Positions 2,807 to 17,879 of a DNA stretch of 64,000 nt are shown piece after piece (within the stretch, counting starts at the first letter, position 1; each line of letters starts with the position of its first letter). Both the position numbers and the translations under genes were made by a program. This DNA is from Bacillota bacterium (GTDB taxonomy: Bacteria > Bacillota > Sulfobacillia > JAJYWN01), in assembly GCA_021791495.1 (NCBI GenBank), contig JAJYWN010000021.1, positions 1 through 64,000 of the forward strand. The letters run 5' to 3'. Under the pieces are notes generated by a model. It worked only from the letters and a program-made list of their open reading frames with translations, was not told where the DNA came from and made no database searches.

Positions 2807-4075
2807 CTATGCTATGGTTTCCTTTCGTGGTCGCCTGCGGTCGGCCCTTGCCGCAAGGACCACCCCAACGATCGATAGCAGCGTCACCACCGTCAGGAAC
2901 GGCAGGTAGGGGTCTCTGGCGTACAGGTGTCCGCCGACGTAAGGTCCCACCGTCATGCCCAGGCTATTGGCCACTTGGATGACGGCCAGCACACGGCCTC
3001 TCTTCTCTTTCGGAACCATCCCGCCCGCCGCCGCGACGGCCAGGCTCATTCCACCGATGCCGCGGGCCAAGGACGAGAAAGCCAAGAGAAGGAAGGGTGC
3101 CGACCACAGGCGCGCGCCGGGCGCCTCTCCGATGCCGCCCATCCGGCCGAGCATCGGGGCCGAGACCAGCAGTCCCAGGAACCCGGACATCACCGCTACC
3201 AGCACGACCCCGAATACTCGCAGCTTGCCATAGCGGTCGCCGAACCAGCCAATCACGGGGCTGACGATGGTCGCCCCCAGGGCCGCCACCGCCGCCAGAG
3301 CGCTGATCCAGAACAGGTCGACCTTGCCCACGTCCTGGAGGAAGGGTGTGACGAAAGTCCCAGCCAGGCCCTGCAGACCAAAGACGGTGAAAAACAGTGC
3401 GGCGAACGCCAGTACGGCCGGGTTCACGTAGAAGAGGGAATCCAGCCAGGACCGCGTCCACGGTAGCCTGCCAGTGCCCGAGTCCCCGGCTCGTTCCGAC
3501 CCGTGCCGCCCAAACCCTCGATCGGGGTACTGTTTGGCGATGGGCAGCGATGCCACTGTCGCCAAGGTCCACAGGACTGCTACCACCCAGAACACGGCCC
3601 GGATGTCGCTGCGGTCGGCCAACCAACCACCAATGGGCGGTCCGATGACCGATCCCAGGGGGAAGGAACTCATGACGAAGCTGTAGACGAAAGCGTCCCG
3701 TCCCTTGGGGGCCTTTTCCATGACGTAGGCCTGCAGGGCGGGAAGAAAGATCATCCCGGCGTTGAAGAACAAAACCCCCGGAGCCAGCGCCGCCCAACGC
3801 CCGGCCAAAGCATAGGTGATCGGAACCGGGATGGCTATCGCCCACCCCCATAGAACCTGCGCACGCCGTTCGAATCGGTCCGCCAAGAGGCCGGCGGGTA
3901 TGGCGAAGACCAGGGCGGTCGCCCCGCCTATGGCGGCCAGGAACCCGATGTCGACCGGCGTCCCGCCGAGCTGACGGACATAAGCCGGCCACAAGGGGGC
4001 GTAGAGTCCCATCCCCACGGCAAAGAGGAAGTTGGAGGCATAGAGAAGCCAGAGATCCCTGTTCAAATGGCGCAT
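2807..4075 (-). CDS. MFS transporter
   Basis: A 422-residue membrane protein with about 12 hydrophobic segments and the loop motif GLLADRFERR between segments 2 and 3, typical of the major facilitator superfamily. A second copy, GWFGDRYGKLR, follows the central loop, as expected for the two-fold repeat. The central cytoplasmic loop (about residues 195-215) is polar. Substrate cannot be read; the overall pattern suits a drug or metabolite exporter. It lies 45 bases downstream of the nucleotidyltransferase-like gene on the same strand and may be co-transcribed with it. The site upstream of the ATG at 4075 is weak (GGGAT). Confidence 0.85.
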   Translation of the reverse strand: MRHLNRDLWLLYASNFLFAVGMGLYAPLWPAYVRQLGGTPVDIGFLAAIGGATALVFAIPAGLLADRFERRAQVLWGWAIAIPVPITYALAGRWAALAPGVLFFNAGMIFLPALQAYVMEKAPKGRDAFVYSFVMSSFPLGSVIGPPIGGWLADRSDIRAVFWVVAVLWTLATVASLPIAKQYPDRGFGRHGSERAGDSGTGRLPWTRSWLDSLFYVNPAVLAFAALFFTVFGLQGLAGTFVTPFLQDVGKVDLFWISALAAVAALGATIVSPVIGWFGDRYGKLRVFGVVLVAVMSGFLGLLVSAPMLGRMGGIGEAPGARLWSAPFLLLAFSSLARGIGGMSLAVAAAGGMVPKEKRGRVLAVIQVANSLGMTVGPYVGGHLYARDPYLPFLTVVTLLSIVGVVLAARADRRRPRKETIA

Positions 4076-4120
4076 GGGCTAATCCCGTTTCTGTTCGAGT
4101 CCTGTCTCTCGGCGTGCACC

Positions 4121-5041
4121 CTAATGCTTGCAGTACTTACGAAAAAGGTTGGCCAGGTAGTCCGCCCTGCTCCGGAGGCCCTCAGGAGATAGTTTTCCGA
4201 AGTCGAAGGCCTCCTCAAGCTCGGGGACCAGCTCCGGCAGGCCCAGAATCTCCACGACCTGCTCACGCACATGTTTCATGTAGTCGATGGGGTACTTCCC
4301 CTGCCGCAGAAAAAGGGCCTGGAGCAGGTACTTGAAGGCGAACAAAGTCCGCTCCACGCCGTGGAAGAGCAGGCCGCGGTCGGCCATTTCGCGCACGGTG
4401 CGGATGTTATGCCAGAAGTCGCCCTCGACGGCCAGGCGTTTGGCTTCACGGACGTCCTCACTGAAGTATGGGAGGAACTGACGCCGCCACATCGTCCACC
4501 AGCCATCGCGTTCAAGGAGCGCGACAGAGTAGACCGCCAGGTTGCCCGCGGCCAGTTCGAAGTCGTCTTCGCGAGGGAGGGCGTTGAAACGCGGCTCGAT
4601 GATACCGTTGTGATAGCCCACATCGGCGCGGATGGAAGCCGGCAGATCGCCGACGCCCGGTACCGAAGCGCTGATTAGGTCGGCCCGGGAGAAGAAGACG
4701 GCGCACCCGTCGCCGAAGGGCACGGGCCTGGTTTCCTTGGTACGCAACCGTTCCGCCAGCTCGTTGGCCCGTCCGAGGAAGGCCTCCCAGTCTGGCGGTG
4801 GCACCATGACCGTGATGTCCACGCAGGACGACTCGGCTCCACGACCCCGCGCCAAGGACCCCGAAAGTAGGACGGCCTTGACCGCCGGGTCTCCGAAGAA
4901 GAAGTGATGGGCCAAGGTAAAGGCAACCCGACGGTGCTCCGCCGTGGGAAAGGCCGGGGAAATGCGGTCGCCCGCGGCTGGCCTGGCGGCGCCCGCCGCC
5001 GCGAGAAGGGCCGGCTCTAGGTATGTGGACTCGTCGGACAT
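4121..5041 (-). CDS. Nucleotidyltransferase-fold protein, unknown substrate
   Basis: A 306-residue protein whose N-terminal part holds the nucleotidyltransferase pattern LSGSLARGRG followed by an acidic VDITVMV strand, as in aminoglycoside and MNT-type nucleotidyltransferases. The rest is helical, with many aromatic residues, resembling the helical domain that follows this fold. The start at 5041 is chosen because AGGAGG lies eight bases before the ATG; the frame stays open to 5242 but that extension has no site. It may adenylylate a small molecule or protein. The second acid of the usual D-x-D pair is replaced (Cys-Val-Asp), so activity needs checking. Confidence 0.6.
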   Translation of the reverse strand: MSDESTYLEPALLAAAGAARPAAGDRISPAFPTAEHRRVAFTLAHHFFFGDPAVKAVLLSGSLARGRGAESSCVDITVMVPPPDWEAFLGRANELAERLRTKETRPVPFGDGCAVFFSRADLISASVPGVGDLPASIRADVGYHNGIIEPRFNALPREDDFELAAGNLAVYSVALLERDGWWTMWRRQFLPYFSEDVREAKRLAVEGDFWHNIRTVREMADRGLLFHGVERTLFAFKYLLQALFLRQGKYPIDYMKHVREQVVEILGLPELVPELEEAFDFGKLSPEGLRSRADYLANLFRKYCKH

Positions 5042-5353
5042 GGCTGGACCTCCTGGCAAATGCCGTGGAACCTCGTGGGGGAAGAGCGACCACCTTGCGA
5101 TTGCCCTGCTTATCTTCTCAGATGCGTTTACCCCGGTCAAGGGGCCGGGCACATCAGAGAAGCCGAAGCGAGAGGGTTCCCGGTTGATGCCGAAATCACC
5201 GACATTGACACTGCCTGATGCCGAGGAAATCGGCACGGGCACCCAGAAGGCATGACGATATTCTCGGCATCAACAGCCCCTCATGACGAAATTGTCGTCA
5301 TCGGAGACGTCCAACACCGAAAGCCTCGTCGATCTATGCCAACCATCCCGATG
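5042..5353. promoter_or_regulatory. Intergenic region with three copies of TGATGCCGA and a hairpin
   Basis: No gene is seen here. Three copies of TGATGCCGA occur: 5185-5193 (within GTTGATGCCGA, 5183-5193), 5216-5224, and inverted at 5264-5272 (within TCGGCATCAAC, 5264-5274). The outer two form an 11-base inverted repeat. A second inverted repeat, ATGACGA/TCGTCAT, lies at 5283-5301 with no T-run. A weak minus-strand promoter may start from TTGACC at 5135-5140. The region lies between the end of the glutamate-synthase-like operon and the nucleotidyltransferase-fold gene. Confidence 0.35.
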
Positions 5354-8059
5354 TTAGCCCTTTCGCCCTTCCGGGACGACCTTCCGGTAGACCTCCGCCG
5401 GACTACGTCCTCCGAGCAGCTGCCGGACGCCGATACCGAAATGCCGCTCGTTCTCCGCCAGGTAGGGCTCGACGACGGCCCAGTCCGCCGCGCCGAAGTC
5501 CACAATCTCGCCCCCGTTTAGCTGCCCCTTCGACAGCGTCCGCTCCGGGTCGTTGATGTACCCGGCTCCGCCGGATGCCAGAGAGAAGAAGTTGCTCCCC
5601 GGATACCTGTCCGGAAGCGGCGTCAGAGCGCCCCTCTCGTCCAGAGCCACGCCGTTCAGCACCAGGAAACCTCCGCCCGTGATGGCGCCGGCCATGAACG
5701 ACTCACAGGCGTAGTCCAAGGCCGTGCCGTTGACGATGGCCCGGATGTTGCCCACGGCGTTGATCAGAGGGCGGCCGGCGGCGTTCCCCAGAACGTAGGC
5801 AACGCCCCCCTTGGCGCCGTAGAGGAAGGTCTGCCCTACCATGCCGTGGATGACCAGCTTGCCGGATTTCAGGATCTGCCCGACCTGGTCCTGCGCGTCC
5901 CCGTGGACGTGAATCTCGGCCCCGTCGAGGCCCGAACCAAGGTAATCACCGCTGCTTCCATACACGTCAAGGCGAACCCCGTGGCTATCCGCTCCCAACC
6001 CACACCCCAGGAAGCGGTCGCCGTGGCAGCCGAAGACGATGAACCGGCGCCATCCAAGGCGGTAGGCCGCAACAACCACTTCGGCCGCCGAATCCGGCCC
6101 TTGCGGTTCGAAACCGGTGCAGTCGATGAAGAGTGTGGGAGCGCTAGGGACGCCGAGAGAGCCGGGGTCTCCGAAGGAGCCGGGGTCACCGTCCCCGGCG
6201 GTGGGACCTCCGTCTGGAGCCGCCAGATGGGCACGGCTTCCCCAGTCGATGCGCACGTCACCGCCCACACCACCACCGATGCGCGGCACCCCGCGGAAGA
6301 TCTCGTCGAGGCCGATACGGAGCCGGTGAACCACAGCGCTACGCTTCTTGCGGCCGGTGTCTGCCCGGCGGTCGTGCAGGGTCGTCAGTCGCCCTATGAC
6401 CTCGTGGCGTCTGGCCGGATCCTCGGCGGCCAGGGACACCTGCCGGCGCACAAAACTGTCCAAATCATCAAAACTGCACCCCGCCAGGTCTATCTCGTCG
6501 CTCCTGTCGCCACTCGCGTGGTGTCCGCCGTAGTCGCCGCTCCCGCCATTTCCGTTCCCGCCGTTGCCGTTCCCGCCGTTGCCGTTCTGATCTTCCCCAG
6601 CCGCCGCGTAAGCTACCGCAGCCACCGCCGGAAGTTCGAGGCCCACCAGGGACTCGTGGTGCATCTGGCCCGGTGCGGTGACCACCGGCCGCCCGAACTT
6701 GTCGGCGCAGGCGAACGGGACCGGCTCCTCGGCGGCGCCGGCAGCAGGATCCGTCTCGAAAGGTCCGACCGTAAAGACGAAGGCCCCGCCGTCACTGTGG
6801 CTCCCTCCGCGGGCGTTCCAGTAGCGGTCGGCCACGGGGCAGACGCGCGCGTCGTCCTTGGACAAGCTCTGGAGGAAGGCGTCGATGGCCTGCTTCTCAG
6901 AGGCGATGACGCCCACCGAAATCTCGCCCTCCTGCAGCGCGAAGACTTGCGGGCGGAGCATGGACGTGTCGGTGATGCCAATGAGCTGGGCCGCCCCCGT
7001 CTTGGGGTCGGTACGGGCGATGATAAAGAACCAGGGGCCGTCCGGGGACCCGTGGAGGTGGGCCCGTTGGACGGCGCCGTAGACGCGCCGCTTCTCAGGA
7101 GGGAGCTTGGTGAAGTCCCGCTCGGTGGTGGGCCCCAGAGCTTCGATAAGATACTCCAAGGGGTAACCGTAGACGCGGTTATACAGATCGAAAAGGTACA
7201 CCGACACTTCGGTGTCGGTCATGAACAAGGGGAAGTAGTTCCGTTGACGCAGGTACTCGGTGACGCCGTAGTAGTTGGCGAAGTCGCCGTTATGGACCAG
7301 AGCTTCGTCCAGACCGCTGAAGGGGTGAGCGCCGCCGGGGTGCCACACCCGGCCGCGAGTCGGGTAGCGCTGGTGGCCGATCCAGACGTGCGCCTTGAAG
7401 TCGTCAAGGAGGTAGTACCGGGCCACATCCTCGGCGTAGCCCACGGCCTTCAGGATCATCATGTTCCGCCCGTGGGAAAGGACGAAAGCTTTCTTGTCCT
7501 CGCGGTCGCCGTAGTACTGGCGGTTCAGGCGGAAGGAGTTTTGGAAGACGAACTCGTCCTCGGCGGCAGCCAGGGCCGCGGCGGAGGCGCCGTTGCCACC
7601 CATGAACCCCTGCTCCTCGGCGAAGCGCGTCAGCACGTCTTCCTTCACCCGGGCGAAGTATCGGACCACGCGCGGCGGCCTGATCTCCAGACCCGCGTCC
7701 CGGTGGTCGTCCATGCTGGGAAGCTCCTGGACCTGGGCGAGATCGAAGAAAGGCTCGATGTAGGCGCGCTCGATCTCGGCGCGGGAGTCGCCCTCAAGAA
7801 GCCCCAGGTGGATGGCGTAGTGCCTTGGGTAATCCGGGAAACACCCGGCGGCGGCGATGCCTCCCCCCTTGCCGTTACCGCGGTTGCGCATCTGGCGGCA
7901 GGGGACGATAAGGTGCCGGCCTCTAATGGGGACCGAGGCGGCCAGGCCGATGACGCCGCAACCACCCTCGGCGGCCTCTTCGTTGCGGTGGCCGGCCGAA
8001 CCGGCCGAACCGCCGAGGGCGAGACGCGATCTGATAATGGTATCTGCCAGGTCGTTCAT
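5354..8059 (-). CDS. Fused glutamine amidotransferase (class II) and GXGXG subunit of a glutamate-synthase-like enzyme
   Basis: A 901-residue protein. Residues ~34-480 form an Ntn-type glutaminase domain: candidate nucleophile Cys34 in GGCGVIGL, then RYPTRG (~233) and HNGD (~257). A low-complexity Gly/Asn and polar linker spans ~485-645. Residues ~640-880 form the Gly-rich GXGXG beta-helix (FGCHGDRFLG, VYGSSGDYLGSG) found in GltB domain 3 and FwdC/GlxC proteins. In archaeal-type glutamate synthase and in N-methylglutamate synthase these are separate subunits. Known class II enzymes expose the Cys by removing a propeptide, here ~33 residues. Start ATG 8059 follows GGAG, two bases after the upstream stop. 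Confidence 0.85.
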   Translation of the reverse strand: MNDLADTIIRSRLALGGSAGSAGHRNEEAAEGGCGVIGLAASVPIRGRHLIVPCRQMRNRGNGKGGGIAAAGCFPDYPRHYAIHLGLLEGDSRAEIERAYIEPFFDLAQVQELPSMDDHRDAGLEIRPPRVVRYFARVKEDVLTRFAEEQGFMGGNGASAAALAAAEDEFVFQNSFRLNRQYYGDREDKKAFVLSHGRNMMILKAVGYAEDVARYYLLDDFKAHVWIGHQRYPTRGRVWHPGGAHPFSGLDEALVHNGDFANYYGVTEYLRQRNYFPLFMTDTEVSVYLFDLYNRVYGYPLEYLIEALGPTTERDFTKLPPEKRRVYGAVQRAHLHGSPDGPWFFIIARTDPKTGAAQLIGITDTSMLRPQVFALQEGEISVGVIASEKQAIDAFLQSLSKDDARVCPVADRYWNARGGSHSDGGAFVFTVGPFETDPAAGAAEEPVPFACADKFGRPVVTAPGQMHHESLVGLELPAVAAVAYAAAGEDQNGNGGNGNGGNGNGGSGDYGGHHASGDRSDEIDLAGCSFDDLDSFVRRQVSLAAEDPARRHEVIGRLTTLHDRRADTGRKKRSAVVHRLRIGLDEIFRGVPRIGGGVGGDVRIDWGSRAHLAAPDGGPTAGDGDPGSFGDPGSLGVPSAPTLFIDCTGFEPQGPDSAAEVVVAAYRLGWRRFIVFGCHGDRFLGCGLGADSHGVRLDVYGSSGDYLGSGLDGAEIHVHGDAQDQVGQILKSGKLVIHGMVGQTFLYGAKGGVAYVLGNAAGRPLINAVGNIRAIVNGTALDYACESFMAGAITGGGFLVLNGVALDERGALTPLPDRYPGSNFFSLASGGAGYINDPERTLSKGQLNGGEIVDFGAADWAVVEPYLAENERHFGIGVRQLLGGRSPAEVYRKVVPEGRKG

Positions 8060-8061
8060 GG

Positions 8062-9690
8062 TCACTCCGCCTTTCGCGGCAGGCGTAGCAGGTCGGTCCG
8101 CCCCCGCAACTCGGCCACGTTGCGCATTCCCAGGCGTCGCAGCAGCAGGGCCAGCTCCCCGGCCCACGCCGTGTACATGCGGACGATACGCTCCGTGGCC
8201 CACTCCGGCGTGATCATGGGCGTCAACTCGCGGTCGGTGGTGGCGATCCCGCGCGGGCATCCCCGGCCCGACTCGCAGTTCGCGCAGCGCACGCACCCCA
8301 GGGCGACCAGCTCGGCCGTCCCCAGGATGCAGCCGTCGGCGCCCAGGGCGATGGCCTTGGCCACATCGTAGGGCGTGCGTAGCCCGCCGCTGGCCATCAG
8401 GGTCACCTGGTCGCGGATGCCCTCCTTCTCCAGGAACCGGTGGGCCCGCGGGATGGCGAACTCGATGGGCATGGCGATGTTCTTCTTGGCGATGTCGGGC
8501 GCCGCACCGGTGCCGCCATACCCGCCGTCCAGGTGAATGATGTGGGCGCCGGCATAGTAGGAGCCCACCGCCACCATGTCGACGTCTTCGGGCGTAGAGA
8601 CCTTGACGGAGATGAGGGTCTTCGGGTTCGTAGCCTTCAGCCAGTCCACGTGCTTCTTATGGTCTTCCACCGAGTAGACCGAGTGGAACGGGAAGGGTGA
8701 GAAAAGGTTGGTGTGCTCCACCGCCTCGCGTACCTCGGCCACGTCGCGTGTGACCTTATCGGCCAGAAGGTGACCGCCCAGACCGGGCTTGGCGCCCTGG
8801 GCGTACTTGATCTCGATGATGCGGGCCCACTGCAGCGTCTCCTCGCGCACCCCGAAAAGGCCGGTGGCGACCTGGGTGATGACATGATCGTGGAAGGGCG
8901 CCAGGTCGGCGGGGTACCCACCTTCACCGGTAGAGGCGAAGGTGCCCAGGCGGCGCGCGGCGCCGGCCCGTCCCATCATGGTGGAGACGGAGATGGAACC
9001 GTAGGACATCCCGCCGCCGTACCAAGGGAGCCCGATGGTGATCCGTTCACCGGGGTACTCGCCGGGGGCGACGGCCCGCCGGTTCAAGGGGAGGGTCAGA
9101 TCCACCTCGGCGCGGGCGGCGGCATAGGCCTCGCGGCGGCGTTCGAGAGTGTCGGCGGCGACGGCGGCGGAGACGGCGGCGGCACTCCTTGCGGCCGCGC
9201 CCACCTGCTCCTGTTGCTCCTGGTCCTCGACCAGGAACCGCAGCCGGTCAAACCCGCCACCGGACGCGCCGGTCCGGTAATTCACCCCCGGAGGCGGGGC
9301 GCCGTGCTCGGCTTCATGCCAGGTCGCCTTCAGGAGGTGCGCCGGCCAGCGCGGGTCGCCGAGCAGCCGGAAATCGCTGCTGGGCTCGACGGCGAGCGCC
9401 TTTTCGGGGCACTCGGCGGTGCAGTCGCGGACGGCAACCACCAGACCATCGCCATCCGCCCTGGAACCCGCCGATGCGCCCGCCCCGGCTCCGAGGCACC
9501 CCGGCCCCAGGCAGAGCCGGCTGTCCGGCTGCGGCAGGCGGAAGAACCCATCTCCTTCCGGGTGCACCCCGGCAGGGCACACCTCGGCGCAGATGCCGCA
9601 GCGTGTACAGGCGTCGGTACGGGTCACCCTCCACCGGGCTGGGCCGGCTGCTACCTTCATCATCTCGGTCGCTTGTGTCGCGATAGCCAC
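8062..9690 (-). CDS. Ferredoxin plus FMN-barrel subunit of a glutamate-synthase-like enzyme
   Basis: A 542-residue protein. A 4Fe-4S ferredoxin segment starts at Cys28 (CTRCGICAEVCP), with a second, less regular Cys group near residues 60-95. From ~150 on it is a glutamate synthase FMN barrel: GMSYGSIS, EGGYP, KYAQGAKPGLGG, HLDGGYGGTG and ASGGLRTP. A 3Fe-4S-like Cys cluster (LGCVRCANC, then a Cys near GCPRG) follows. It would reduce the imine made from a 2-oxo acid and channelled ammonia, giving an amino acid. It starts at GTG 9690 after AAGGAG. The same architecture occurs in archaeal GltB and in MgsC/GlxD, so N-methylglutamate synthase is an alternative. Confidence 0.85.
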   Translation of the reverse strand: MAIATQATEMMKVAAGPARWRVTRTDACTRCGICAEVCPAGVHPEGDGFFRLPQPDSRLCLGPGCLGAGAGASAGSRADGDGLVVAVRDCTAECPEKALAVEPSSDFRLLGDPRWPAHLLKATWHEAEHGAPPPGVNYRTGASGGGFDRLRFLVEDQEQQEQVGAAARSAAAVSAAVAADTLERRREAYAAARAEVDLTLPLNRRAVAPGEYPGERITIGLPWYGGGMSYGSISVSTMMGRAGAARRLGTFASTGEGGYPADLAPFHDHVITQVATGLFGVREETLQWARIIEIKYAQGAKPGLGGHLLADKVTRDVAEVREAVEHTNLFSPFPFHSVYSVEDHKKHVDWLKATNPKTLISVKVSTPEDVDMVAVGSYYAGAHIIHLDGGYGGTGAAPDIAKKNIAMPIEFAIPRAHRFLEKEGIRDQVTLMASGGLRTPYDVAKAIALGADGCILGTAELVALGCVRCANCESGRGCPRGIATTDRELTPMITPEWATERIVRMYTAWAGELALLLRRLGMRNVAELRGRTDLLRLPRKAE

Positions 9691-9760
9691 TGGGCCACTC
9701 CTTATGGTCGATGATCGAGACGTGCGCACTCCGTCGAATGCGCCCGCCATGGTGCTGCTA

Positions 9761-12700
9761 TCAGTCCTTGGCGCCGCCCGCGCCGGCGGCGTCCGCGCTC
9801 GCGGCGTCCGCACCCGCGGCACCGGCCTTGAAGAGAGGGGCGAACAAGTCCGCCTCCAACTTGGCGGCGAACATCGCCCGGCCGCGCTCGCCCCGGAGCC
9901 GGCGGACCTCACGCATACCCATGGCGCCCAAGACTTCAAGAAGCTGGTTTCGCCATGAGATCATCAGATTCACGATGCGCTGGGCGCCCCAGGTCGGGTC
10001 CATGGTGGCCAAGCCGGACGGGCAAGGGTCGCCGGCGAAGCAGCCGTCCGTGAGCGGGCATCCGAGGGCCGCCACCAAGGGGACGTCGACGACGACTCCG
10101 TCCGCTCCCAGGATGATGGCCTTGGGCACATGCTCGGCGGCGGCGATCCCCCCGCCGGCCAAAAGGGTAATGTCGTCGCGGATGTTCGCCGCGACCAGAG
10201 CCTGGTGTACCATGGGCAAAGCCTCGTGGAGGGGCCGTCCGTCGCCGCAGATGCCGTCCCAGCCGGCGGCCAGGTGGACCGCCTCGACCCCGGCCTTGGC
10301 CAGTTCGACGACGCGCGAGGGGGCGCGGGAGGTGTCAAGGGGGACGCGGACGACGACCACGACCCCGCTGCCGGCGCCGCCGGAGGTGCCGATTGGCCGA
10401 CTGGCCGCCCGGGCCGCGGTGATGCGGTGCAGGGTTTCCTCGATGGCGCCCGCGTCTTCCACCTCAATCAGAGTGGGGGCCGTCGCCCCATGGCTTTGGT
10501 CCGCAACCGCCCCGCCGGTCGTAACAGTGGCGGCGGGGTCTAGCACGAAAGTTTCCAGACGTGCGGCGGCCTGGCGGGCGGCGGCCATCACCGCCGGTTC
10601 GCCACCGTGCACGGGGGGCGGGGAGAAAAGCACCGGGATGGGGATCTCCACCGTCACCGGGATGTCCCCCACCATCTCACCGCGCGCGTCGAATGTCAGG
10701 CGTCGCGGGCGCCGGCCCACGTAAATAGCGGTGCTGATGTATTCGCGGCCGTGGATCCCGTCGCGGGTGGGCCGGACGATCTCGCTCATATCCGTCCACA
10801 TGCCATCGAAGCCCTCGCCCGCAAAGGGGCCCCGGTAACCGGCCCCGGTGACGGGGATGCGGCCGTCGTCGGCCTGTCGGGCCAGCGAGAAGAGGATATC
10901 CGGTGTGAACGGGCCCTTCCCGGAAGCGGCGAAAGCGGGGTCGGTGGAGATCGAAAGGTTCTGCCGGGGGCACTCCATGACGCAACGGAAGCAGGCCTTG
11001 CACAGGTCGCTGGCCGGAGCCGCCATGCGGCGCGGGTCGTTTGGGTTGCGGAAGTGCACACCGTAGATGCACGCTTCGCCGCAGTGTCCACAGTTCACGC
11101 AGTAGTCGCCGCGCTCGACACGGAACCGGCTGGACACACCACCGGGCGGCGGTGCCACGGGCACGGTTTCAAGGTGGAAGCGACCGCCGTGGTCCTCCTT
11201 GGAGCCGGCGGTACGGGTGGATGCCGGTGGAGACGTGGGTGCCGACGCGGACACGGGCACGGGGCTCGCAGGCGCTGCGCTCGCGGCGAAAGTAGCGTTT
11301 TCCTTCAGCCACTTCTGCGTCAGGAGTCCGGCCGGCCGTACCAGCCCGATCCGCTCGGCATAGGCCGGGTCCTTCTCGACCCCGGCCACGAAACTCTGAA
11401 TCTGCTCGGATGGCCGCCCGAACCTTGCGGCCAGGGCAGTCTCCAGGCGCTCCCAGGCGTCCATCAATGGCAGGCCGGCTTGGCAAGTCTCAGCGCAAGC
11501 GCGGCAACGCATGCACTGGAAGGCAGCCGCGGCCTCATCTACGTCGATGCCGTCTTTTCCAGCGGCTCCGCCGGCCGCACCTGCCGCTCCGGCCAGCCTC
11601 CTGGCCAGCCAGAGCTTGCCGCGGGCCGTCACGCGCTCGTCACCGGTGTGCAGATAGGCCGGGCACACGGCCACACAGTTGGCGCAAGAGGTGCATTGGA
11701 GCGAAGTCAGGAGAAGCTCCGGAAGTGGGTCACCGTCGAAGGTCACCGGTTCAGGAGAGACGTGGAAGCGGGCCGCGTGAGCTGCCTTGGCAGCCGGCAC
11801 CGTCTGGGTCACCTGGGCCGTGGGGGCCGGCGCGGCCGGAGCCATCCGAGTGGCCGGAGCCTCCGCCCCTCCCGAGACCGCGCCTACCAGGGGCGATACC
11901 GCCCTCAACAGAGACATTCCCGCACCGAAAGGCCCGGGACGAAACGCCACCCGCCCGGCGGGCGAAAGGGCCTGAAGGCTGAGGAACTTGCCTGGGTTCA
12001 GTATGGCGACGGGATCAGACCCCCGCTTGGCCCGAACCAAGTCGGCCAAGCGCCCACCCGTGTACTTCTCGGCGGCGAAGGCTGCGTGCCACACGCCAAG
12101 GTTGTACGGCCGGCCACCGAATCGTCGGCCGAGGGAATCGAGCATCGAAGCCACGGCTAAGTGGACCGTGTAAGACGACTTTCGTACGTCGGTGAGGAAC
12201 ATAGGGATGACCAAGGCCTCTCCACCCCGCAGGGCGTGGGCCTCCACCGCCAGTTCCAGGCCCCAACGCGCTGCCAGGCGATGGGCCTCTTCCAGGAACC
12301 CCGTGGTCGCCTCCAGGGGCAGCACGACCTGTCCAGCAAGAAGGGATGGACCCAAAGACCTGATGCGCATGGGGAAATACCGGTCCGCCCACAGATGGCC
12401 GCTCTTCTCCCGGTCGGCTTCGGCCGCCTCGGGGCGCCGCCGGAGGGTCTCGCCCAGCGCTTCCTCGGCCGCGGCGTCATCTACTAGGAGAAGCAGGGAC
12501 GGGCGCTCGTCAAGGAACGCGGCGCGATCACCATCGCCGCACCCAGTGAGGCCAACCCGTTGCCCCGTCTGCCCATCGGCCGTAGCCAACTGGTTCAACA
12601 GCCGCAAAAGCCCCGGTTCAAGGAACATTATGGTGGCAGGGCCGTTGGCGGGGCCAACGCCGCATGGGTCACCGTTGCCCTTCCCCTGGAGCTCCGCCGC

Positions 12701-13507
12701 GAAGCGGAGGGCCGCCCGGTTGGACTCGAAGGACACCAGATGCGGCCGCCGGAAAGTCGGACGCGAGATCAGGCGAAGGGTGACCTTGGAGATCAGGCCA
12801 AGCTGCCCTTCGGTTCCGATGAGCCGCTCGAACAGCGGATCTTGGCGCCGGACTTGCCTCACCGTGCCGTCGATCCCCACCGTCTCGATGGACTCCACCC
12901 AATCCGCGGCGGACCCGTACTTGGCGGCGTTGATGCCGAAACCTCCACTGGACAGCCACCCGCCCACGGTCCCCATGCGGTTCGAAGGGTAGACCGCCAA
13001 GGTCAACCCATCCTTGGCGACGCGGTCGGCGATGTCACCGAAGCGCGCCCCCGCCTCCACGGTGATGGTGGCGTGCGGGCCAGCGGCTGCTGCTGCCGCC
13101 GTCCCTGCGGCGCCGGTCGAGACGCGGGTGTCCACCGGACCGATGGCCTTGAAGAAAGAGAAGTCCAGCATGATGCCGCCGCGGGCCGGCACCGGCCCAC
13201 CGAAGGCCGTCGAGGCCACACCCCTTGGCGTCACAGGTACCTTCTCCCGTGAAGCGAAGCCCATCACCTCGGAGATGTCCCGCGTGTGGCGCGGCTGCAC
13301 CACTACGCCCGGCCTGGGCTGCATAAGGGCGGTCACAAGCCAATCCGGCACATCGGCCAAGTCGCGGGAGTAAAGGCGGAGTGAGGAAGGTGAGTTGAAA
13401 ACCCGGGCCCCGTCGCCAAGGAGCGCACGTAACTTGGTTCCAAGGACGACGGTCGAATCGGTGCGGGTCGGCGCGCTGCGATAGGTACGATCACTACGGT
13501 TCGACAA
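9761..13507 (-). CDS. FAD oxidase, multi-ferredoxin and FMN-barrel fusion protein
   Basis: A 1248-residue fusion. Residues ~50-520 are a GlcD-type FAD-linked oxidase (PRGVASTAFGG, YPSNRMGTVGGWLSSGG, GTEGQLGLI). At ~600-680 two CxxCxxC motifs resemble GlcF (CTSCANCVAVCP, CMRCRACAETC). At ~800-850 two more follow (CVNCGHCGEAC, CKACFRCVMECP). From ~860 there is a second glutamate-synthase-type FMN barrel (GFDGMWTDMSEIVRPTRDG), ending with ALGCPLTDGCFAG. No NAD(P)H site like GltD is seen. I infer an electron-input subunit that oxidises a 2-hydroxy acid and feeds the operon's synthase. It starts at TTG 13507 after GGAGGG and is first in the operon. Confidence 0.85.
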   Translation of the reverse strand: MSNRSDRTYRSAPTRTDSTVVLGTKLRALLGDGARVFNSPSSLRLYSRDLADVPDWLVTALMQPRPGVVVQPRHTRDISEVMGFASREKVPVTPRGVASTAFGGPVPARGGIMLDFSFFKAIGPVDTRVSTGAAGTAAAAAAGPHATITVEAGARFGDIADRVAKDGLTLAVYPSNRMGTVGGWLSSGGFGINAAKYGSAADWVESIETVGIDGTVRQVRRQDPLFERLIGTEGQLGLISKVTLRLISRPTFRRPHLVSFESNRAALRFAAELQGKGNGDPCGVGPANGPATIMFLEPGLLRLLNQLATADGQTGQRVGLTGCGDGDRAAFLDERPSLLLLVDDAAAEEALGETLRRRPEAAEADREKSGHLWADRYFPMRIRSLGPSLLAGQVVLPLEATTGFLEEAHRLAARWGLELAVEAHALRGGEALVIPMFLTDVRKSSYTVHLAVASMLDSLGRRFGGRPYNLGVWHAAFAAEKYTGGRLADLVRAKRGSDPVAILNPGKFLSLQALSPAGRVAFRPGPFGAGMSLLRAVSPLVGAVSGGAEAPATRMAPAAPAPTAQVTQTVPAAKAAHAARFHVSPEPVTFDGDPLPELLLTSLQCTSCANCVAVCPAYLHTGDERVTARGKLWLARRLAGAAGAAGGAAGKDGIDVDEAAAAFQCMRCRACAETCQAGLPLMDAWERLETALAARFGRPSEQIQSFVAGVEKDPAYAERIGLVRPAGLLTQKWLKENATFAASAAPASPVPVSASAPTSPPASTRTAGSKEDHGGRFHLETVPVAPPPGGVSSRFRVERGDYCVNCGHCGEACIYGVHFRNPNDPRRMAAPASDLCKACFRCVMECPRQNLSISTDPAFAASGKGPFTPDILFSLARQADDGRIPVTGAGYRGPFAGEGFDGMWTDMSEIVRPTRDGIHGREYISTAIYVGRRPRRLTFDARGEMVGDIPVTVEIPIPVLFSPPPVHGGEPAVMAAARQAAARLETFVLDPAATVTTGGAVADQSHGATAPTLIEVEDAGAIEETLHRITAARAASRPIGTSGGAGSGVVVVVRVPLDTSRAPSRVVELAKAGVEAVHLAAGWDGICGDGRPLHEALPMVHQALVAANIRDDITLLAGGGIAAAEHVPKAIILGADGVVVDVPLVAALGCPLTDGCFAGDPCPSGLATMDPTWGAQRIVNLMISWRNQLLEVLGAMGMREVRRLRGERGRAMFAAKLEADLFAPLFKAGAAGADAASADAAGAGGAKD

Positions 13508-17255: not shown

Positions 17256-17879
17256 TTAGTCTGGGGGACTAGGAGGAGTGCACTGCGGCGGGAACAGATC
17301 CGTCGGCGGGCATTCCGGGAACTCCGGAGAAACCTGGACGCATTCGGCCGGAACACAGAAACCGTAAGCGGGCACGAGGAGCTTCACCGTGGCGTTTGTC
17401 TCGACCAGGAGGCAGAGGCTGAAAGTGCAGCAGACCTGGCGGCTCGGCGTCAGAATGCACGGCCCACAACCGTAGGCCGGGACTGTGCAGTTCACCACGG
17501 TTCCATCCGGGGCGCAAAGAGTGACGGTCTTGGTGAACGAGAAGGAGACTGGGAAGTCGCAGGTACATGTCGGGTAAATCGCCGGCGGGTTAGTGATGCA
17601 GATGGTCGCCGACACGGTAATCAGTAGTGTCACATTGAAGAAGCCTGGCGTGGTCAGCGGCACCCGGCCGGCTTCGACGCAGTTGACGTTGGTGATACTG
17701 CAGACCACCGTGGCGTCGGCGGTGGGCGAGCAGTTCTCGGGAAGGTTAAAGCAGACGTTCTCCCGACGTTCGTTCTGGAAACAGAAGTCGTACACCTTCG
17801 ATGTCTCAATGCAGACGATCTCGGTCGGCGGAGGGCACCCTCCGGGCGGACACGGGCCGGGGATGATCGGAGTGGACAT
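17256..17879 (-). CDS. Cys-rich, coat-like protein of unknown function
   Basis: A 207-residue protein with 22 Cys and many Pro, Thr and Val. It begins with a Pro/Gly/Cys segment, then a CIETSKVYDFC motif that I associate with Cys-rich spore-envelope-type proteins of Bacillota. Two similar beta-rich halves follow, each ending near VPAYG-x-C. There is no signal peptide or membrane segment. It starts at ATG 17879 after AAGGAGG. A structural, disulfide- or metal-stabilised role in a spore coat or envelope layer is inference; no sporulation gene is nearby to support it. It is convergent with the M14 peptidase gene. Confidence 0.6.
   Translation of the reverse strand: MSTPIIPGPCPPGGCPPPTEIVCIETSKVYDFCFQNERRENVCFNLPENCSPTADATVVCSITNVNCVEAGRVPLTTPGFFNVTLLITVSATICITNPPAIYPTCTCDFPVSFSFTKTVTLCAPDGTVVNCTVPAYGCGPCILTPSRQVCCTFSLCLLVETNATVKLLVPAYGFCVPAECVQVSPEFPECPPTDLFPPQCTPPSPPD

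Follow-up and report, generated by a model that had tools for sequence, protein, structure and literature searches.

We analysed a 64,000-nucleotide stretch of DNA (the window) from a Bacillota bacterium (contig JAJYWN010000021.1 of assembly GCA_021791495.1, positions 1 to 64,000). Three open reading frames on its minus strand, ORF1, ORF2 and ORF3, lie head to tail as a three-gene operon with domains of a glutamate synthase. ORF1 and ORF2 are separated by 70 bases and ORF2 and ORF3 by 2 bases, and the likeliest starts of the latter two are a GTG at 9690 and an ATG at 8059. The protein of ORF2 is referred to here as B, that of ORF3 as C, residues 780-1248 of ORF1 as A', and the GlcD-like part that binds flavin adenine dinucleotide (FAD) as the head. 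The features are, all on the minus strand:

9761..13507, minus: ORF1, 1248 residues, TTG start; GlcD-like FAD domain, two [4Fe-4S] clusters, two further [4Fe-4S] clusters and the A' pseudo-barrel
12851..13312, minus: FAD_binding_4 domain of ORF1, residues 66-219 (Pfam, 1.4e-23)
11987..12466, minus: FAD-oxidase_C-like domain of ORF1, residues 348-507 (Pfam, 1e-4), with W373 and R376 kept
11471..11701, minus: first pair of 4Fe-4S motifs in ORF1 (C605, C665), GlcF/LdhH-like (Pfam, NCBIfam, motif pattern)
10964..11107, minus: second pair of 4Fe-4S motifs in ORF1 (C803, C836), where the A' unit begins (Pfam, motif pattern)
10730..10855, minus: near-invariant block of A', residues 885-926, the adaptor-subunit signature (alignment of 23 sequences)
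9914..10243, minus: A' pseudo-barrel, residues 1089-1198, equivalent to the C-terminal part of the glutamate synthase flavin mononucleotide (FMN) barrel (Pfam, fold match)
10019..10060, minus: 3Fe-4S-like motif of A', CPLTDGCFAGDPCP (motif pattern)
8062..9690, minus: ORF2 (B), 542 residues; ferredoxin-like N-terminus and intact FMN barrel with [3Fe-4S] cysteines
5354..8059, minus: ORF3 (C), 901 residues; class II glutaminase and GXGXG

A preliminary description made from the bare sequence had recognised one 1248-residue frame joining a GlcD-like FAD segment, four Fe-S motifs and a glutamate synthase barrel segment, placed first in an operon with the remaining glutamate synthase domains. The reading frames, Pfam and a motif-pattern search bear this out, with the barrel of ORF2 and the glutaminase-GXGXG of ORF3 lying downstream. 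Within ORF1, Pfam places Fer4_8 at residues 603-679, Fer4_21 at 801-848 (under its cut-off) and Glu_synthase at 1089-1198 (7.4e-17, covering positions 252-368 of 369 in the profile), and the pattern search finds four CxxCxxCxxxC motifs, starting at residues 605, 665, 803 and 836, and the 3Fe-4S-like motif at 1150. The segment described as GlcF-like is so in its two-cluster half only, as the CCG domain (PF02754) is not listed for ORF1 by Pfam. A frameshift or assembly artefact can be ruled out because the GC content of third codon positions is even (0.73-0.86 across twelve 100-codon blocks spanning residues 1-1200, linkers included) and because homologues conserve the order of the parts.

B and C carry the hallmarks of a glutamate synthase: a catalytic FMN barrel, the [3Fe-4S] cysteines, the cysteine of a class II glutaminase and GXGXG. 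The Pfam match of ORF2 to Glu_synthase (2.7e-91) spans the full barrel and is accompanied by a ferredoxin-like piece, and its alignment with the Azospirillum brasilense glutamate synthase (2vdc/1ea0) runs through the cysteines as well as GAKPG and GGTG. Among the relatives described below, counted over loci that were not preselected for GAKPG, the 62 with a clear B keep GAKPG in every case, TGEGG in 60 and GGTG in 59, the three GGTG misses being cuts at contig ends. For ORF3, Pfam lists GATase_6 (3.5e-6) and GXGXG at residues 692-844 (9e-14). The likely nucleophile is Cys34 in EGGCGV (codon 7958-7960), and the GGCG(V/I) motif is kept in 56 of 57 loci, the remaining one (L155) having CGV in a different setting. 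The DNA retrieved around the operon includes a glutamine synthetase at 22 of the 73 loci mapped, and GlnA, GSIII, GlnE, CarA, CarB or PurF lies near 26 of the 73. From the intact B and C sequences together with these neighbouring genes, we infer that the product is glutamate. It is improbable that the complex uses glutamine to build a different amino acid or that it oxidises glutamate: the canonical glutaminase model PF00310 gives no match to ORF3, and an ELFV dehydrogenase of the same genome could provide glutamate, but the catalytic motifs of B align with those of A. brasilense, GAKPG is universal among the clear B proteins, and the glutamine-related genes recur beside the operons.

The barrel of A' differs from that of B. 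GAKPG, GGTG and TGEGG are each missing from all 68 A' sequences of at least 380 residues, which rules out the ORF1 barrel as a second catalytic glutamate synthase domain; the GltB-type FMN barrel of the preliminary description thus holds as a fold and as a Pfam segment, but it is a shrunken, motif-poor paralogue of the intact ORF2 barrel. A' has instead its own signature, PVxGxGYxGxFxGxxFDGMWTDMSEIVRPTRDGIxGREYIST, at residues 885-926 of the window protein. The AlphaFold model of A' (predicted template modelling score, pTM, 0.75; 99 of 469 residues with a predicted local confidence, pLDDT, below 50) finds its best match by VIA in the GltB FMN domain of 1ea0, with a Z of 18.7 and a root-mean-square deviation of 3.5 over 271 residues, whereas Foldseek alone ranked flavocytochrome b2 and glycolate oxidase (lactate/glycolate oxidases) above glutamate synthase. 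The 3Fe-4S triad is seen by pattern in 19 of 45 GlcD-type and 11 of 12 MTHFR-type A' rows (types are defined below); the same pattern scores 54 of 60 in B, so some real triads escape it. As only part of the A' rows have the pattern, the cofactor content of A' varies and the triad seems dispensable. Since the catalytic motifs that B keeps are lost in A', the latter looks like a duplicated barrel whose active site has been lost and which is retained as an electron adaptor rather than as a second active site.

Relatives of the operon were mapped at 73 loci, made up of the window, 31 loci from a scan of genome contigs and further sets of 3, 20 and 18; L178 and L179, taken from a wrong contig, are not among them. 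Their hosts are archaea and, among bacteria, Syntrophus-like forms, Planctomycetota, Verrucomicrobiota and members of the phylum to which the window belongs. In that phylum, the A' profile gives full-scale matches in 4 of 299 genomes (590-699 bits), the next best scoring 116 bits and 233 of the 299 genomes matching at E 0.001; such scarcity (4 of 299 genomes above 500 bits) rules out a lineage trait of the window's group. Among the matches listed for 61 genomes (its own and 60 relatives), the window's own is the sole full-length one. At E 1e-60 the profile matches 26 of 200 genomes in the class of a Methanomassiliicoccales locus and 27 of 149 in the class of a Syntrophus locus.

The preliminary description had tied the electron-input module to the synthase subunits, and gene order supports that tie: of the 73 loci, 64 have B after A', and in 8 of the other 9 a contig end is no more than 160 bases away. 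C is missing in 15 loci, with less than 1.9 kb remaining in all but one of them (L052). Two kinds of gene are found upstream of A', a GlcD-FeS protein in 53 loci and an MTHFR-like protein in 16; both together occur in none and neither in 4. Two of those last four are an A' (L172) whose stretch starts 16 bases before it and a locus (L037) with MvhD and glutamine synthetase; the other two (L050 and L054) are archaeal, with no head within 10.3 and 3.6 kb, respectively. Head and A' are on separate open frames in 51 of the 53 GlcD-type loci and are fused only in ORF1 of the window and in L155, where a single 2539-residue protein (4042-11658, minus strand) comprises the GlcD-like head, FeS clusters, A', the B barrel and glutaminase-GXGXG. 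The glutaminase of this protein has no GGCG, and its CGV sits inside the chain, so it would need cleavage or another mechanism. In the archaeal loci without a head (L050:10091-12759 and L054; B is present in L050), the A' of L050 has lost its first 4Fe-4S motif and its B the ferredoxin part, and this version is possibly ferredoxin-dependent or carries out another reaction.

An A' and B tree was built for 60 of the 73 loci by a quick method (LG+G4), leaving out seven loci with a short A' or B, L155 among them, and six without a GAKPG-bearing B. Twelve MTHFR-type rows and two rows with neither head lie on one side of a branch with a Shimodaira-Hasegawa-like approximate likelihood-ratio (SH-aLRT) support of 97, GlcD types lie on both sides, and four changes suffice to explain the head-type labels versus a mean of 14 when the labels are shuffled. 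Across 43 of the 53 GlcD loci, pairwise distances between heads track those between A' sequences (r 0.98) and between B sequences (r 0.975), a co-divergence that fits one inherited complex. It is hardly credible that the genes are mere neighbours, the GlcD-FeS protein working in another pathway: their order is conserved over archaea and several bacterial phyla, head distances track the core, and fusions of differing extent have arisen in the window and in L155.

We next consider what the head might oxidise. Its predicted fold (pTM 0.82) matches D-lactate dehydrogenase with a VIA Z of 30 over 433 residues and the LctD subunit of the Ldh-EtfAB complex with a Z of 28.7. The residues H398, H405, E442 and H443 of mLDHD, which we take to be the metal ligands and catalytic histidine, were placed in the head by sequence alignment to mLDHD rather than by superposition. 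In all 21 aligned heads, the equivalents of H405 and E442 are replaced and that of H443 is Tyr; H398 is kept in 13. Invariant in the same 21 heads are W373 and R376, which line up with W and R of mLDHD. GHxGDGNxH or GEHG is present in none of the 53 heads, compared with one or both motifs in 11 of 19 control stretches with GlcD matches (L005-L023, drawn from genomes in the same order and class as the window). The eight control stretches with neither motif include the two best-scoring relatives, L005 and L006; some control stretches are short, for example L015, and of those with neither motif the L005 protein alone was viewed closely. It is a FAD-FeS-CCG protein without GHxGDGNxH or GEHG, so loss of the motifs is not unique to the head of the operon. 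The nearest relative of the head in the window genome, a free-standing FAD-FeS-CCG protein of 1104 residues, shares the W..R pair and GGRxY with it and is also without the motifs. FAD-FeS-CCG proteins of 1104 and 1033 residues lie at L180:5599-8910 and L181:5754-8852 (both minus strand); they have a C-terminal Met-Pro-rich repeat and no GlcD metal motifs, and each adjoins a gene resembling a helix-turn-helix regulator. The NCBIfam GlcD score of ORF1 is 78.5 against a cut-off of 567.9.

These observations bear on the earlier suggestion that a 2-hydroxy acid, for instance D-lactate or glycolate, may be oxidised by the head and drive glutamate synthesis directly. The resemblance of the head to D-lactate dehydrogenase and LctD in fold and overall sequence and the invariant W373 and R376 speak for such a reaction, but two of the three metal ligands and the catalytic-histidine equivalent are replaced in every aligned head, the canonical motifs are missing from all 53, and the six flanking genes (C-N hydrolase, MFS transporter, a gene with no match, HlyIII, MbnB-like and M14 peptidase) give no pointer to a hydroxy acid, as judged from a scan of those six genes with the substrate of the MFS transporter left aside and no wider search made. 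We therefore regard this chemistry as unlikely, and the suggestion is weakened. The alignments are consistent with a head belonging to a GlcD-related branch distinct from the canonical 2-hydroxy-acid enzymes, for which an unusual carboxylate donor is possible; as a first guess, the donor might be a carboxylate-type small molecule or else a carrier protein. In the vicinity of the operon, a 373-residue open frame past its end (4121-5242, minus strand) has no Pfam match at 0.01 and resembles a nucleotidyltransferase, and a 207-residue frame rich in Cys and Pro (17256-17879, minus strand) resembles a spore-coat or surface protein.

GltD, the usual input subunit, had been described as absent. None is encoded in the operon, and neither Fer4_20 nor Pyr_redox_2 is listed by Pfam for ORF1-3 and the six flanking genes, but elsewhere in the genome GltD-like (PF14691) domains are present three times: once on contig C64, in a protein whose gene adjoins an NfnA-like one, and twice in proteins resembling HdrA, on C1 and on C28 (the latter as judged from its sequence). 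The PF00310 glutaminase gives no match in the window genome (12 of 14 control genomes are positive) and was not found in 28 of 33 A' genomes, a provisional count as these are mostly metagenome assemblies. The other five have it in full canonical form (G374, G380) or as a weak, short match (G119, G245, G375). A GltD or normal glutamate synthase encoded elsewhere would have spoken against the proposal; in the window genome the free GltD-like protein beside NfnA and the missing PF00310 give no sign of one, but G119 and G245, both of the window's phylum, have a second glutaminase gene with a weak match. The window genome also has one glutamine synthetase and, on contig C6, a further Glu_synthase barrel of 470 residues, for which no ferredoxin or glutaminase partner was seen within the surrounding 8 kb.

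A protein carrier as the electron source of the head, whether electron transfer flavoprotein (ETF), ferredoxin or, in Thermoplasmata-like archaea, NfnAB, is a possibility that we hold at clearly less than even but above direct hydroxy-acid oxidation; a comparable case is the exchange between the FAD of LctD and EtfAB. In its favour are the place of LctD, from Ldh-EtfAB, among the closest solved structures, the NfnAB genes that come after the operon in 10 GlcD-type loci (two from named Thermoplasmata and eight of the same class, of which L146 was checked), and the presence of ETF alpha genes in the window genome. Those ETF alpha genes sit on other contigs, however, and an ETF-alpha query from that genome (L189, the one valid query, E 1e-8) matches none of the 73 stretches; the remaining 43 GlcD-type operons, a good number of them on short stretches, showed no NfnAB nearby. 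Upstream of the archaeal operons, genes for an MttB-family methyltransferase (L146:3379-4842) and a class III aminotransferase (L046:4662-6014) were also observed, one of each being checked, and by eye they seem to recur.

The 16 MTHFR-type loci have MvhD in 15 cases, MetV in 8 and HdrA in 6. In both L157 and L087, Pfam confirms FlpD (MvhD) and MTHFR; to these it adds the MTHFR C-terminal family DUF5981 for L087 and, for L157, CCG together with an HdrA that has a GltD-like part. Gene labels outside these two loci are from BLAST only. Electron bifurcation, in which spare energy of glutamate formation reduces ferredoxin and the branch lies at the head flavin (at HdrA in the MTHFR type), would draw on the MvhD of these loci, on the HdrC-, HdrB- and GltD-HdrA-like genes in line in some of them (L157 by Pfam and NCBIfam), on an arm rich in clusters and on the second glutamate-synthase-like barrel. 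As HdrA is found in only 6 of the 16 and in-line HdrA in none of the GlcD-type loci, we think bifurcation about as improbable as 2-hydroxy-acid oxidation. In L157 (7760-19899), MvhD, MTHFR, A', B and C are followed in line by HdrC-, HdrB- and GltD-HdrA-like genes, with a similar order in L158, L171 and L174, so that the glutamate synthase core stands in what resembles an acetogen-type MTHFR/Hdr cluster. The window's organism has a separate copy of the parts of this other head type: MvhD, GltD-HdrA-like, HdrB- and HdrC-like genes beside apparent acetogenesis genes (L184, C1:24000-36000), and MTHFR at C1:22856-23734. A PPDK_N protein (Pfam) of about 875 residues with a KaiC/RecA-like N-terminus was observed near a GlcD-type and an MTHFR-type operon (L029:16940-19561 and L042:5529-8153, respectively).

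The reading that we favour, and consider probable, is that the three genes specify a single glutamate synthase complex. ORF1 would form its integral arm for electron input, which takes the place of GltD and has an exchangeable head. The complex, direction of electron flow and chemistry that we infer are as follows. The donor, something other than NAD(P)H acting through a GltD module, would pass an electron pair to the FAD in the GlcD-like head, and the FAD would split the pair into single electrons. These are predicted to pass through the two GlcF-like clusters and the two A' clusters to the ferredoxin-like part, [3Fe-4S] cluster and FMN of B, where the FMN would reduce 2-iminoglutarate formed from 2-oxoglutarate and the ammonia that C frees from glutamine. 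A' would dock and wire the constant B and C to a head that varies, being GlcD-FeS in the window and MTHFR/MvhD in other loci. The potentials of the methyl-tetrahydrofolate and lactate couples, near -0.2 V, are not as negative as that of NAD(P)H, so that either type of head could be a weaker and cheaper donor than NAD(P)H.

Several observations weigh against this interpretation. L052 has A' and MTHFR without B despite 2.2 kb of room and is a true exception to the expectation that A' always neighbours the synthase subunits, which otherwise holds apart from misses mostly at contig ends. Because the relatives are for the most part known from metagenome assemblies, genes missing from them can be called absent only provisionally. 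In the A' and B tree, the window row is a long branch of odd composition, several other branches are long, and the program warns of this; vertical descent alone would also yield the correlation of head, A' and B distances. The A' of Syntrophus-like loci is without the 3Fe-4S triad. In the 10 archaeal loci where NfnAB follows the operon, NfnB is GltD-like, so NAD(P)H could be the ultimate, indirect donor. Finally, as regards an alternative glutamate supply, the window genome has one strong match to ELFV, a glutamate-dehydrogenase-type enzyme.

In its broadest form the proposal is of a cross-domain family of glutamate synthases without GltD that takes plug-in heads, and we advance it tentatively, judging it rather less probable than not. 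The catalytically dead A' would be the universal socket; a GlcD-like head would feed in a weak reductant other than NAD(P)H, an MTHFR/MvhD(/HdrABC) head would couple nitrogen assimilation to one-carbon or bifurcating flow, and anaerobes would thereby spare NADPH. By comparison, the characterised glutamate synthases use NADH, NADPH or ferredoxin, as stated in the consulted part of a 2012 paper (PMC3448663). If the proposal is true, a synthase fed through an exchangeable flavin head would alter what nitrogen assimilation costs in energy for anaerobes such as the Syntrophus relatives and Thermoplasmata. GlcD-type and MTHFR-type heads on the same socket would offer a clean, testable case of modular redox-enzyme evolution, and the A'-bearing family a defined target in the hunt for a new electron donor.

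This operon was not found described in the open-access literature, to the extent that its texts could be consulted; subscription papers and preprints lay outside the search, so absence from print does not follow. Nearest to it are FGltS(I)/(II) of methanogens, putative glutamate synthases dependent on F420 (PMC3448663, PMC3087415, PMC9012536), which Susanti and Mukhopadhyay (2012) inferred from gene context and whose input protein they describe as an FrhB/Fsr-N homologue taking F420H2 (PMC3448663). Like FGltS as there described, the operon is a glutamate synthase in which GltD appears to be swapped for another input flavoprotein, gene context being the basis in both cases; unlike FGltS, its head is a GlcD-like FAD/FeS protein joined via the A' adaptor, of which the portion of the FGltS description consulted has no mention (PMC3448663). 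Filed as a glutamate synthase variant, the operon thus has in FGltS a precedent for the exchange of GltD, but no FrhB/FdhB-type Pfam family is listed for ORF1-3 and the six flanking genes. With GltBD (1ea0, 6s6s; PMC8097209, in the part consulted) it shares the glutaminase, the FMN barrel with 3Fe-4S cysteines, GXGXG and electron supply via 4Fe-4S clusters. It differs from GltBD in having separate genes for glutaminase and barrel, in the location of GltD-like domains outside the operon, and in the addition of the motif-poor barrel A' and an FAD head of different fold. The head has the fold and FAD domain of LctD, D-lactate dehydrogenase and GlcD (7qh2, 8jde), but it has lost metal-site residues and is linked to a glutamate synthase. 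Relative to GlcF and the heterodisulfide-reductase-like Fe-S subunits, ORF1 has two 4Fe-4S clusters with no CCG domains listed. Acetogens reportedly have a MetVF-HdrABC-MvhD complex; the MTHFR-type relatives resemble it in their MTHFR- and MvhD-like genes, joined at some loci by MetV- and HdrABC-like ones, but place all of these in line with A', B and C. We accordingly class the operon as a variant of glutamate synthase, distinct from FGltS, GltBD and the GlcD enzymes.

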